Origin: Candidatus Zixiibacteriota bacterium
GTDB lineage: Bacteria; Zixibacteria; MSB-5A5; GN15; FEB-12
DNA: 51,399 nucleotides
Direction of reading: 5' to 3'
Assembly: GCA_024280215.1 (NCBI GenBank)
Contig: JAJRQO010000024.1
Location: 1-51,399, forward strand
In this document: piece by piece, positions 39,646-44,179 of the stretch
How positions within the stretch are numbered: position 1 is the first letter of the stretch
Layout: the number at the start of each line of letters is the position of its first letter
Translations under genes and position numbers: made by a program
The notes under the pieces: generated by a model
Told to the model about the DNA's origin: nothing
The model's database searches: none
The model's input: only the letters and a program-made list of their open reading frames with translations

Positions 39646-40263
39646 ATGAAATTAGTCTATTATACGGGTTGGACCTTTTTTAGATCAATCACAAAAATTC
39701 TTTTTAGAATAAAAATCTCTGGTCAAGAGAACTTTCCGAAAAAAGGTGGATTTATCTTGGCTTCCAATCATCAATCATATTTAGATCCCCCTGTTGTTGG
39801 CTCATGGGCTCCACGACCAGTTTATTTTATGACCAAAGCGGAACTCTTTAAAAATAAAGCTCTTGAATGGTACCTCAATAATACTAATGCCATCCCAGTA
39901 AGACGGGGAGAGATGGATCGTCAGGCGATCAGAGCTATTCTTGATGTTATCTCCTCTGGAAATGGAATCACGATTTTCCCAGAGGGTACCAGATCCCAAT
40001 CGGGTGAGTTTTTAGATCCCAAAGCTGGTATCGGTATGATTGCTAAAAAAGCGGAATGTCCAATAATTCCTACCTATGTAAGCGGTTTTAATCAATTAAA
40101 AAATGTTTTTTGGGGAAAAGCAAAACTTTCGATTACCTATGGAAAACCAATTCAAACCGAATGGGTTGTGAGTCAGGAAAAAGGTAAAGTAGGGTATAGT
40201 GCTATTGCTCAACATGTTATGGATGAAATTCGTAAAATAAAATTGAGCCAGTCTAATTCTTAA
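39646..40263 (+). CDS. plsC: 1-acyl-sn-glycerol-3-phosphate acyltransferase
   Basis: 205 residues with the acyltransferase motifs NHQSYLD (H42-x4-D47) and FPEGTRS (111-117), plus the substrate-pocket motif VRRGEMDRQA. PlsC adds the second acyl chain to form phosphatidic acid at the inner membrane. A short hydrophobic N-terminal stretch suits membrane association. It follows cmk by two bases. About 200 bp separate it from rpsA, where a separate promoter and a structured leader lie. Confidence 0.93.
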   Translation: MKLVYYTGWTFFRSITKILFRIKISGQENFPKKGGFILASNHQSYLDPPVVGSWAPRPVYFMTKAELFKNKALEWYLNNTNAIPVRRGEMDRQAIRAILDVISSGNGITIFPEGTRSQSGEFLDPKAGIGMIAKKAECPIIPTYVSGFNQLKNVFWGKAKLSITYGKPIQTEWVVSQEKGKVGYSAIAQHVMDEIRKIKLSQSNS

Positions 40264-40315: not shown

Positions 40316-40345
40316 TTGGAATTTTTTCAAATTTTAGTATATAAG
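40316..40345 (+). promoter_or_regulatory. Putative promoter of rpsA
   Basis: TTGGAA at 40316-40321 and TATAAG at 40340-40345 are separated by 18 nt (or TATATA at 40338 by 16). Transcription would begin near 40350, at the first hairpin of the leader. Confidence 0.5.
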
Positions 40346-40349
40346 ATGA

Positions 40350-40469
40350 CTGCTAATTAGCAGGTACTGCTTTCAAGCAGGTATCCGCAATGCGGATAGA
40401 TTTATCGGTCTCCTTGTAAAAGGAAATCCAAGCCGGTTGATCATGATTAAGGAGGTTCTTTTAAGAACT
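40350..40469 (+). ncRNA. Structured 5' leader of rpsA with competing hairpins and an anti-SD
   Basis: Consecutive palindromes fill the leader. Arms CTGCT-AGCAG-CTGCT-AGCAG (40350-40380) can fold as two separate hairpins or as a central AGCAG:CTGCT pairing. TATCCGC-AAT-GCGGATA (40382-40398) is a perfect 7-bp stem. TCCTT-GTAA-AAGGA (40411-40424) is a tetraloop hairpin enclosed by GG...CC pairing. The CTCCTT at 40410-40415 can instead pair with the Shine-Dalgarno AAGGAGG at 40449-40455. GTTCT-TTTA-AGAAC (40455-40468) lies between that site and ATG 40470. The layout suggests translational control, perhaps autoregulation by S1. It does not match a riboswitch class I recognise. Confidence 0.6.
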
Positions 40470-42548
40470 ATGGCTGAAGCCAAAAAAACTACTACCGTTG
40501 CTGCTAAAACCTCAAAGAGAAAAGCACTAATAGGTAAAAAATCCCAAAAAACTAAAGTCAAACTAACTAAGACGGATGCTGTTGTTGAAGTTAAAGCTGC
40601 TGTTGAGACTGAAGTTCAAGAACTTGTTGTTACCTCGCGTCATAAACGTATGGCCGAAAAAGCTAAAGTGAGAGCAGCTCTTCCAAAAGCTGAAATCGCT
40701 GATGTTGGTAAAGTTCGTATTACAGATGTATCTGGTGTTGTCTACGATGAAGACGAATACAACGCCATGGTAGAGATGTATGATGCCACGATTAGAGATA
40801 TACGTGAAGGCGAAATCGTCAGCGGTACTATCTTAGGTGTCACAAGAGACGATGTTATTGTCGATGTCGGATTTAAATCAGAAGGTATTATTCCGATTCA
40901 GGAATTTACTGGTGTTGATGAAATCAAAGTCGGTGATGCTATCGAAGTATTCTTGGAACAGATTGAAGACTCACACGGTCAACTCATTCTTTCCAAACAA
41001 AAAGCAGACTTCATGCGAGTCTGGGATCAGATTCGTGAATTTCATGATTCTGGTGAAAAGGTCGAAGGCTCTGTTGTTCGTCGTATCAAAGGCGGTCTTG
41101 TCGTTGATGTTATGGGCGTCGATGCTTTCTTACCTGGTTCTCAAGTCGCTCTTCGTCAGGTTCCTGACTTTGATGCACTTATTAACCAAACGATGGAACT
41201 TAAGATTATTAAAATCAATAAAGCTCGTCGTAACATCGTTGTTTCAAGACGTATGGTCTTGGAAGCAGAACGCGAATCTATGCGTGACGAATTATTGGCT
41301 GATATCGCCGTCGAACAAGTTCGTAAAGGTATCGTAAAAAATATTACTGATTTTGGTGTCTTCATTGATTTAGGCGGTGTTGATGGTCTCCTGCATATCA
41401 CTGATATGTCGTGGGGTCGGATTCGTCACCCATCCGAAATGGTAACTCTTGGTGAAGAAATCGATATTAAAATCTTAGATATCGACGAGAAAACTTCTCG
41501 TATTTCCTTAGGACTCAAACAAATGACTCCTTACCCATGGGAAGATATCGAAACCAAATACCCTATCGGTGATAAAATTGTTGGTCGGGTTGTATCGATT
41601 ACTGATTACGGTTCATTTATTGAACTTGAAAAAGGTATCGAAGGCTTGATTCACATTTCTGAAATGTCTTGGACACAACATATCAAACACCCATCCAAAA
41701 TTATGTCGGTGAATGATAATGTTGAAGCGGTTGTTTTATCTGTTGATAAAGATAACGAGAAAATTTCTCTCGGTATCAAACAGATGGAACCAGACCCATG
41801 GCAAACTATCGATGCTAAATATCCAATTGAGAAAATCATCTCTGGTAAAGTAAGAAACCTTACTGCCTTTGGTGCTTTTGTCGAACTTGAAGAAGGTATC
41901 GATGGACTGGTACATATTTCTGATATGTCTTGGACAAAACGTATCCAACATCCTTCTGAAGTTATGAAGAAAAATGACACTGTTGAAGTCAAAGTTATCA
42001 AAGTTGACCATGACAACCGTCGGATTTCTTTAGGACTCAAACAGTTATCTGAAGATCCTTGGGCTGAAATTGCTGAAAAATATGCAATCGGAACTGAGTG
42101 TTTAGGGACTATTACAAAAGTAATGGACCGTGGTGTGATTGTTGACCTTGATGGAACTGTTGAAGGTTTTGTTCCAACAGCCCAACTTGGTAAAAAAGGA
42201 TTATCAGATGCATCCACAGCATTTAAAGCTGGCGAAGAACTTCATTTACATGTAATTGAATTTGATCGTAAACAGCACAAAGTTGTTCTCTCTGTTGAAG
42301 CGTATTACAAAACTCGAGAACAGAGTGAACTGGATGAATATCTTTCTCAACATGAAAGTTCAGAAGTTCCAAGTGCGATGGCTGATGCAATGCCTGATGC
42401 TTTAAAAGAAGCTGCTGCAAATGCGGATGAAACTCCTGCTCCTGCTAAAAAAGCAAAAGTAGAAGAGGCACCTGCTGAAGAAGCGAAAGCAGACGAAGCA
42501 CCTGAAGCGAAAGCTGATGATGCTGACGACGCAGCAAAATCTGAATAA
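40470..42548 (+). CDS. rpsA: Ribosomal protein S1
   Basis: 692 residues from ATG 40470; TTG 40437 and ATG 40443 would translate through the Shine-Dalgarno AAGGAGG. A Lys/Ala-rich extension (about 1-75) precedes six S1 RNA-binding repeats, with typical segments GIVKNITDFGVFIDLGGVDGLLHITDMSWGRI and GRVVSITDYGSFIELEKGIEGLIHISEMSW. The C-terminal roughly 50 residues are an Ala/Glu/Asp-rich tail. S1 brings mRNA to the 30S subunit and is important for mRNAs with weak Shine-Dalgarno sites. The extensions make it longer than the E. coli protein. The upstream leader suggests regulated translation. Confidence 0.95.
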   Translation: MAEAKKTTTVAAKTSKRKALIGKKSQKTKVKLTKTDAVVEVKAAVETEVQELVVTSRHKRMAEKAKVRAALPKAEIADVGKVRITDVSGVVYDEDEYNAMVEMYDATIRDIREGEIVSGTILGVTRDDVIVDVGFKSEGIIPIQEFTGVDEIKVGDAIEVFLEQIEDSHGQLILSKQKADFMRVWDQIREFHDSGEKVEGSVVRRIKGGLVVDVMGVDAFLPGSQVALRQVPDFDALINQTMELKIIKINKARRNIVVSRRMVLEAERESMRDELLADIAVEQVRKGIVKNITDFGVFIDLGGVDGLLHITDMSWGRIRHPSEMVTLGEEIDIKILDIDEKTSRISLGLKQMTPYPWEDIETKYPIGDKIVGRVVSITDYGSFIELEKGIEGLIHISEMSWTQHIKHPSKIMSVNDNVEAVVLSVDKDNEKISLGIKQMEPDPWQTIDAKYPIEKIISGKVRNLTAFGAFVELEEGIDGLVHISDMSWTKRIQHPSEVMKKNDTVEVKVIKVDHDNRRISLGLKQLSEDPWAEIAEKYAIGTECLGTITKVMDRGVIVDLDGTVEGFVPTAQLGKKGLSDASTAFKAGEELHLHVIEFDRKQHKVVLSVEAYYKTREQSELDEYLSQHESSEVPSAMADAMPDALKEAAANADETPAPAKKAKVEEAPAEEAKADEAPEAKADDADDAAKSE

Positions 42549-42811: not shown

Positions 42812-44179
42812 ATGTCTAAAGTTAAACTAGTTTATATCATATTATTATTTTCTCTTTTCTTGTCATGTGATGAGAAAAAGCCAACCGAATCAATAGAAAC
42901 TGCTCAATTAACTGGTTATGTCTATCAAGTTTTGAACGGATTTTCCAATCGTGTTCCTAATGCTGATATATCAGTTGGTGAATATAATACTATCTCTGAT
43001 TCTCTTGGGTTGTACAGGATCGAAATTCCTATCGGCGAACAGACGATACAGATATCGCATGAGCTATTTGATACAACAATAGATACGATAAATGTTCGAG
43101 GTGATAGAAGTTATTTAGTCAATTTACTAAATGGTCCCGTATATTCAGTTTCTGGAGTTGTTACAGATACTTTGGGTGCTGTTGTTGAGGGAGCTATCGT
43201 AGAACTGGCTCATTTGCGAGATACAACGGATATAGATGGCAGTTATGAATTTTCTGATATTTTAGCAGGCAGTAGAATCTTGAGTTGTGATTATTTGGAT
43301 TACTATCTTTTTATTGATACTCTTGAAATTACAAACTCAATCATTTCAAAAAACATAAATCTCATAAGACATGGATATAATCTCTCAGGTACTGTCTCCC
43401 ATCCTGTTGATGGATTACTAAACGGTATTGAAGTCGTTTTAGATGATACACTATTTGATACAACGAATATAAATGGAGAGTATCTATTTGAAAATATCTT
43501 TGTAGGCGAACATCAAATACAGGTTAATTCAGCTAATTATAACTATAATGTTTTTCAATTTTCACTTGTTGATTCAGATCTATATAAAGAATTGGTAATT
43601 AGTAAAAGCACAATACAAAAGATTATGATAGAGAAAGATGCAAGAGTTAGTTTTCATGGGACTAGCAATGACACAACACGAATTGATCAAAATTATGGAG
43701 AAAGCTCTCGAATAGGATTCGGATACGATATTGTCGATGTTTTTTCTCATTCTGATGGGACATATACATACTGGAACTATTCAAACAGAACATATATGGA
43801 GTTACCTCCATTTAATAATACTGTTGATTCTGCTTTTCTAGTCTTATCTATAAGTACCGGTTTTATTGTTGATACATTTAGTATTGTAAAAATATCAAAT
43901 TTAGCAAGTCCTTGGGAAGAACTAGAAATTACTTGGAATACTCAACCTCAAGAAAGTAACCAATACATTAGTCTTCAACCTTCTCTTGATGATAGTTTAA
44001 GATGGACTATAGACATTTTAGAATATTATGATATTTTTGCCAGTTCTAATGGATTTAAAATGTATTATCCTTCTGATCAGGGTTGTTATGGAATTTGTTT
44101 AGCAGGAAATTCTGTCTATTCAAGCGAAGCAGTAGAAGTTAATAAACGTCCGTATATATTGCTATACCGAACTCAATAA
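42812..44179 (+). CDS. Lipoprotein with carboxypeptidase-regulatory-like repeats and DNRLRE domain
   Basis: 455 residues. The signal peptide ends in a lipobox-like LFLSC. Three carboxypeptidase-regulatory-like beta-sandwich repeats lie near 30-110, 113-185 and 190-265 (for example SVSGVVTDTLGAVVEGAIVEL and LSGTVSHPVDGLLNGIEVVL). The C-terminal part (about 275-455) matches the DNRLRE pattern, with DSAFLVLSI and the closing phrase WEELEITWNTQP. Such proteins are surface-exposed and probably bind extracellular structures or glycans. GAGG precedes the ATG. It is a single-gene unit next to repeats. The ligand is unknown. Confidence 0.75.
   Translation: MSKVKLVYIILLFSLFLSCDEKKPTESIETAQLTGYVYQVLNGFSNRVPNADISVGEYNTISDSLGLYRIEIPIGEQTIQISHELFDTTIDTINVRGDRSYLVNLLNGPVYSVSGVVTDTLGAVVEGAIVELAHLRDTTDIDGSYEFSDILAGSRILSCDYLDYYLFIDTLEITNSIISKNINLIRHGYNLSGTVSHPVDGLLNGIEVVLDDTLFDTTNINGEYLFENIFVGEHQIQVNSANYNYNVFQFSLVDSDLYKELVISKSTIQKIMIEKDARVSFHGTSNDTTRIDQNYGESSRIGFGYDIVDVFSHSDGTYTYWNYSNRTYMELPPFNNTVDSAFLVLSISTGFIVDTFSIVKISNLASPWEELEITWNTQPQESNQYISLQPSLDDSLRWTIDILEYYDIFASSNGFKMYYPSDQGCYGICLAGNSVYSSEAVEVNKRPYILLYRTQ

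Follow-up and report, generated by a model that had tools for sequence, protein, structure and literature searches.

Is the region ahead of rpsA, the gene of ribosomal protein S1, in a genome of Candidatus Zixiibacteriota a regulatory RNA, and if so, which of its structures carries the function? The host assembly comprises 3.03 Mb in 42 contigs, and the window, which is the whole stretch of 51,399 nucleotides that was analysed, corresponds to contig C30. All features described here lie on its forward strand. The gene order around the leader is cmk-plsC-rpsA, where plsC ends at position 40263 and rpsA (40470-42548) starts with the ATG at 40470. The rpsA product matches the NCBIfam 30S ribosomal protein S1, exceeding the cut-off of several models. 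The following gene, which begins at 42812, codes for an unrelated protein that weakly matches a DNRLRE domain, and therefore rpsA is probably transcribed alone, as the sole ribosomal protein gene downstream of the leader. The N-terminus of this S1 (40470-40760) is a Lys-rich extension of about 90 residues located ahead of the S1-model match, and a recurrent SKRKA/TKRKA motif is present in the extension of its relatives.

The leader begins downstream of two promoter-like hexamers at 40316-40321 (TTGGAA) and 40340-40345 (TATAAG, in TATATAAG from 40338), and a transcription start at about 40350 is predicted. Such hexamers, scoring at least 8 out of 12, are found upstream in 33 of the 37 unique leaders of the family, compared with 27% of mononucleotide shuffles. 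The sequence between 40335 and 40490 folds with -44.9 kcal/mol, while 200 dinucleotide shuffles reach -32.9 ± 3.4 kcal/mol, giving a z-score of -3.58 with none of the 200 as good. The 5′ part consists of two tandem hairpins (40350-40380) built from four arms, CTGCT at 40350-40354, AGCAG at 40359-40363, CTGCT at 40367-40371 and AGCAG at 40376-40380, followed by a perfect 7-bp stem with an AAT loop (40382-40398), in which TATCCGC at 40382-40388 pairs with GCGGATA at 40392-40398.

The first-pass annotation read this leader as a translational switch, in which the four arms pair in two exclusive ways and a CTCCTT element alternates between a local AAGGA and the rpsA Shine-Dalgarno (SD) sequence. 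All of the named elements are in the sequence, as the coordinates and the folding confirm. The two arm pairings are nearly isoenergetic (-10.5 kcal/mol for the side-by-side hairpins, -10.9 kcal/mol for the nested alternative), and CTCCTT at 40410-40415, which faces AAGGA at 40420-40424, is complementary to the SD AAGGAGG at 40449-40455. The switch logic is not supported by comparison with related genomes, in which the two alternative pairings are not both conserved. The number of CTGCT/AGCAG-type units varies within the genus, from two hairpins in the host (G000) to three in G003, where one arm is CTGTT, and one in G002; G001 has no such unit and carries one unrelated 11-bp hairpin in its place. 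Beyond the genus the arms are absent, and their cross-pairing may simply be accounted for by tandem duplication. The 7-bp hairpin recurs with altered pairs in the other three genomes of the genus. In the wider family, a 5′ fold of free sequence, unrelated to the CTGCT arms, is placed downstream of the hexamers (median z-score of -2.9 against mononucleotide shuffles). CTCCTT itself is genus-specific, as the leaders listed have it in G000, G002 and G003 and in no other genome, and its pairing with the SD has a probability of about 0.013 in the full-leader ensemble; forcing this state costs 3.6 kcal/mol (-41.1 vs. -44.7 kcal/mol). Many leaders devoid of CTCCTT still permit a short, partly G-U pairing to GGAGG at the corresponding strand, so an anti-SD state may exist in some species, although conservation lies elsewhere. 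The switch is thus very improbable.

What is conserved is a hairpin core (40399-40442), located 3′ of the CTGCT arms and just 5′ of the SD, which was defined by folding, covariation and model search. Its outer stem, P1, is formed by 40399-40402 and 40404-40409 with 40432-40437 and 40439-40442, and was not among the stems named by the first-pass annotation. The inner stem, P2, pairs 40411-40415 with 40420-40424, and thus contains most of the CTCCTT element. The 3′ strand of the asymmetric loop is A-rich, and in the window it reads AAUCCAA (40425-40431). In the GTDB family to which the window belongs (f1), the typical form is CUGACGGUUUUCCC-loop-GGGAAAAAUCCAAAACCGUCGG, where the sequence of P1 varies freely with pairing kept, the short P2 is GC-rich in most cases, and the 3′ loop strand hardly departs from AAAAAUYCAAA. 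P2 appears elsewhere as UUCCC/GGGAA, CCCCG/CGGGG and similar combinations, and it covaries locally. GGAGG is present in 36 of 37 unique leaders, and in these it follows the end of the core at a distance of 4-12 nt. In locus L018 (1408-1472, genome G025), a second SD-like AAGGAGG is found inside the core hairpin itself, in the right strand of P2 and upstream of the real SD.

Compensatory changes across related genomes do exist, and they were found for this core. In an alignment of 40 sequences (A1), RNAalifold predicted ten pairs, nine of them with two-sided change. In a second alignment (A2, 37 sequences), with the structure specified by us, 91.5% of the cells were paired, compared with 37-55% for slid partners, and 13 of 15 pairs had two-sided change. 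A further alignment (A4, 51 rows, from which two weak antisense matches of A3 were excluded) gave 91.1% of paired cells vs. 38-58% in slid controls and two-sided change in all 15 P1/P2 pairs, values that lean to the structure, as A4 was fitted to a covariance model. Along a protein tree covering 32 of the 51 genomes, the other 19 being left out as a long enough protein was missing, 35 branch-wise double changes were inferred; 33 of them preserve a standard pair, and the slid controls yield 0-5. Among 758 cells, G-U/U-G cells (114) far outnumber A-C/C-A cells (19), and because of this bias the alignments indicate that the structure is maintained on the sense strand, as RNA.

The distribution of the core is narrow and regular. 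The gene rpsA was recovered in 58 of 61 genomes; together with loci of a named collection and further genomes of the phylum, this gave a set of 144 leaders, 121 of which are distinct from one another in the last 70 nt ahead of the start, with locus L245 excluded as its start could not be assigned. The covariance model of the core (R1) recovered 51 of 52 family loci, including 12 cores absent from A2. In the host genome its single match is at rpsA (E-value 3.6e-5), the next two having E-values of 0.58 and 1.09. Across the phylum, 53 of 132 genomes have a match at E ≤ 0.01. Within f1, exactly one copy is present in 51 of 54 genomes, in all 51 immediately upstream of rpsA. Two of the misses (G006 and G084) are genomes from which an intact rpsA was not recovered; the third, G018 (locus L042), resembles the P1-P2 shape by RNAfold and by eye, carries AAAUUCC and has an additional hairpin between core and SD; it is left uncounted. 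Outside f1, only G063 and G067 give matches; these are weak and are not on the contig that carries rpsA. On 33 loci comprising families f2, f3 and f4, other families and L042, R1 gave no significant match.

Simpler versions of the layout are nevertheless seen in other families. The 13 leaders of f4 have the form AAUAUCCC...GGGAUAAAUAUA; their loop strand does not vary, and their inner stem has two-sided changes, a modest signal that 1 to 15 of 500 shuffles equalled. A GC-rich hairpin closing at most 3 nt from an AAU or AAC before the SD is present in 35 of the 71 leaders outside f1, compared with 7.5 ± 2.7 in dinucleotide shuffles (maximum of 15 in 100 rounds); within f1 this strict rule is satisfied by 26 of 50 leaders vs. 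9.2 in shuffles. Such a layout suggests common descent of the f1 core and these smaller hairpins, which is plausible. In another candidate phylum, on a contig labelled TA06 bacterium (L113), CTAATTC and ATAAAGGAGG come after a GC hairpin in the rpsA leader, which thus resembles some Zixibacterial families.

Downstream of the core, the SD AAGGAGG (40449-40455) is located 14 nt ahead of the ATG. GGAGG is present in 48 of 50 family leaders, and it is separated from the ATG by 13-15 nt in 48 of the 50 unique f1 leaders, compared with mostly 9-12 nt in the 71 other leaders and a peak at about 4-9 nt for SD motifs of the host genome (554 ORFs, with the first ATG as start). In the window the spacer is filled by a hairpin, GGTTCT-TTTA-AGAACT (40454-40469), which occurs in G000, G003 and G001 and is missing from G002. 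The rpsA SD has an energy of -11.4 kcal/mol, among the best 10 of the 554 ORFs, as calculated with the common bacterial anti-SD tail, because a 16S rRNA gene was not found in the host assembly (listed as 96% complete). On the same scale, 24% of the ORFs reach -7 kcal/mol or better compared with 7% of mock windows, about a threefold excess, with a small E. coli control (37 ORFs) in which the mock rate was high. An earlier candidate view, that SDs are rare in this genome, was based on GGAGG at 14 of 703 starts; this count was too strict, and the view was dropped after the energy-based comparison. The SD of rpsA is not sequestered by any conserved helix: GGAGG has a median unpaired probability of 0.41, and P1 forms independently of it. 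By eye, the AAUYC loop might also pair with the SD flank (GGUU) as a pseudoknot, a candidate that was set aside because the SD hardly varies and so yields no covariation. A strong SD (AAGGAGGTG) directly after a complementary TCCTC was also noticed at the bS21 gene rpsU of the host (L283, G000:C14:39700-40500), where a small SD-hiding hairpin is possible.

The first codons of rpsA can form a mini-hairpin, UGGC-UGAA-GCCA in the window (40471-40482, codons 1-5) and UGGC-NNNN-GCCA in general, with GGC-N4-GCC present in 44 of 50 f1 leaders. When codon 4 is Ala in f1, it is always GCC (44 of 44); in the rest of rpsA, GCC makes up 39% of the Ala codons on average, and at codon 2 it is used in 5 of 47 cases. 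Codon 4 is also the most invariant of 255 degenerate-codon columns (45/45; the next reaches 0.84). Among all leaders with Ala at both codons 2 and 4, codon 4 is GCC in 65 of 67, and GCA is found in the single leader that has Ala at codon 4 and another residue at codon 2; these counts ignore shared descent. The mini-hairpin is backed by synonymous constraint, as read from the codons, and not by covariation, its pairs hardly varying. The family architecture shown by comparison thus comprises a 5′ fold of free sequence, the P1-P2 core with its A-rich loop, a strong SD, a 13-15-nt spacing and a mini-hairpin that takes in part of the AUG.

A consistent position upstream of a ribosomal protein gene and a secondary structure backed by covariation, two of the features expected of a ribosomal protein leader (r-leader), were both found. 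The leader is probably a new r-leader acting in cis on the rpsA mRNA, and feedback by S1 is its likeliest role, which we favour with somewhat better than even confidence. In this mechanism, free S1 would bind the A-rich loop displayed by P1-P2, and the bound protein would fix the core right at the SD and block docking of the 30S subunit, whereby S1 in excess would repress its own production. The extended spacing, together with the start-codon hairpin, might weaken SD-driven initiation and create a need for S1-assisted unfolding, for which free S1 could compete; this is the least certain step. The P1/P2 covariation, the sense-strand bias, the near-fixed A-rich loop and the invariant GCC at codon 4 speak for S1 feedback, and the single-copy target, rpsA only, fits the prediction of self-regulation. 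S1 is generally regarded as weakly sequence-specific, which counts against it, as do the absence of a conserved helix sequestering the SD and the confinement of the covariance model to f1. According to a review, S1 favours U- or AU-rich sequences upstream of the SD, which speaks for S1 feedback here, and in E. coli a canonical SD, such as this leader has, abolishes S1 self-repression, which speaks against it (PMC10931766).

The same preference of S1 can be accommodated by a constitutive element for translation or stability, in which the 5′ hairpin shields the mRNA and the A-rich loop docks the S1 already bound to 30S, with feedback absent. A/U-rich S1 targets 5′ of the SD are described as enhancing translation (PMC10931766), the SD is exceptionally strong, and 5′ folds are common across the family. 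However, an enhancer has no need of a 10-bp outer stem that covaries and is found upstream of a single gene, and the long spacing and start-codon hairpin oppose high expression; we consider this explanation unlikely, although it keeps an appreciable chance. The strong SD, found before rpsA in nearly all leaders examined, could also recall the specialised ribosomes proposed for rpsU in Flavobacteriales, where ribosomes lacking a protein use a strong SD avoided by other genes. SDs are in use in this genome, as the excess over mock windows indicates, and P1-P2 would be left unexplained, which makes such a scenario hardly credible.

An r-leader with a ligand other than S1, e.g., uS2, bS21 or an RNase, is likewise improbable. 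The downstream gene is the sole ground for assigning S1, and the loop is sharply conserved although S1 is weakly sequence-specific, but the element precedes no other gene of the host genome at a meaningful E-value. In E. coli, uS2 is reported to require a bS1 partner on its own operator (PMC10931766), which would also suit a non-S1 ligand.

S1 feedback has a precedent in gammaproteobacteria, where S1 is a specific autogenous repressor and the free and the 30S-bound protein compete for a leader devoid of a canonical SD, as the review describes it (PMC10931766). That operator and the Zixibacterial leader share a structured initiation region, A/U-rich single strands and S1 as the likely ligand (PMC10931766). 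Because the strong SD is retained here, the leader falls outside the gammaproteobacterial class, as the first-pass annotation had held in calling it a regulatory-looking structure of a different kind; the P1-P2 core and the mini-hairpin likewise set it apart from the operator in the review's description (PMC10931766). The S1 dependence that comes with SD loss in gammaproteobacteria could arise here from the extended spacing combined with the held start codon. The annotation also recognised no known leader class, in agreement with Rfam 15, which gives zero matches for the window at the gathering threshold; 12 loci of relatives return only tRNAs, in two loci, and a permissive search gave three matches, all at chance level. 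In being a short covarying structure before a single r-protein gene in one lineage, the leader resembles the lineage-limited r-leaders of Eckert and Weinberg 2020, whose Table 1 assigns none of the 20 new r-leaders to S1, a statement that does not extend to the 35 earlier ones (PMC7247131). It shares a strong SD before an r-protein gene with the extended-SD autoregulation of rpsU in Bacteroidota, as outlined in that report, and differs in that SDs are in general use here and a conserved folded leader is present (PMC9976891).

More tentatively, and with the balance against it, the leader may descend from an old, phylum-wide S1 r-leader consisting of a hairpin, an AAU strand and an SD, which f1 would have developed into a P1-P2 clamp for S1, in combination with a strong but handicapped SD. 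The handicap would be the 13-15-nt spacing together with a hairpin-held start codon kept by synonymous-site constraint, and S1 dependence would thus arise by geometry, rather than by SD loss as in gammaproteobacteria. The open-access literature searched describes S1 self-control only in gammaproteobacteria, and no rpsA leader outside that class or in Zixibacteria was found in it. If S1 feedback holds here, a second rpsA leader, with a strong SD, would suggest that such control arose more than once, and a protein usually called little sequence-specific would be shown to have a sharply conserved site on RNA.
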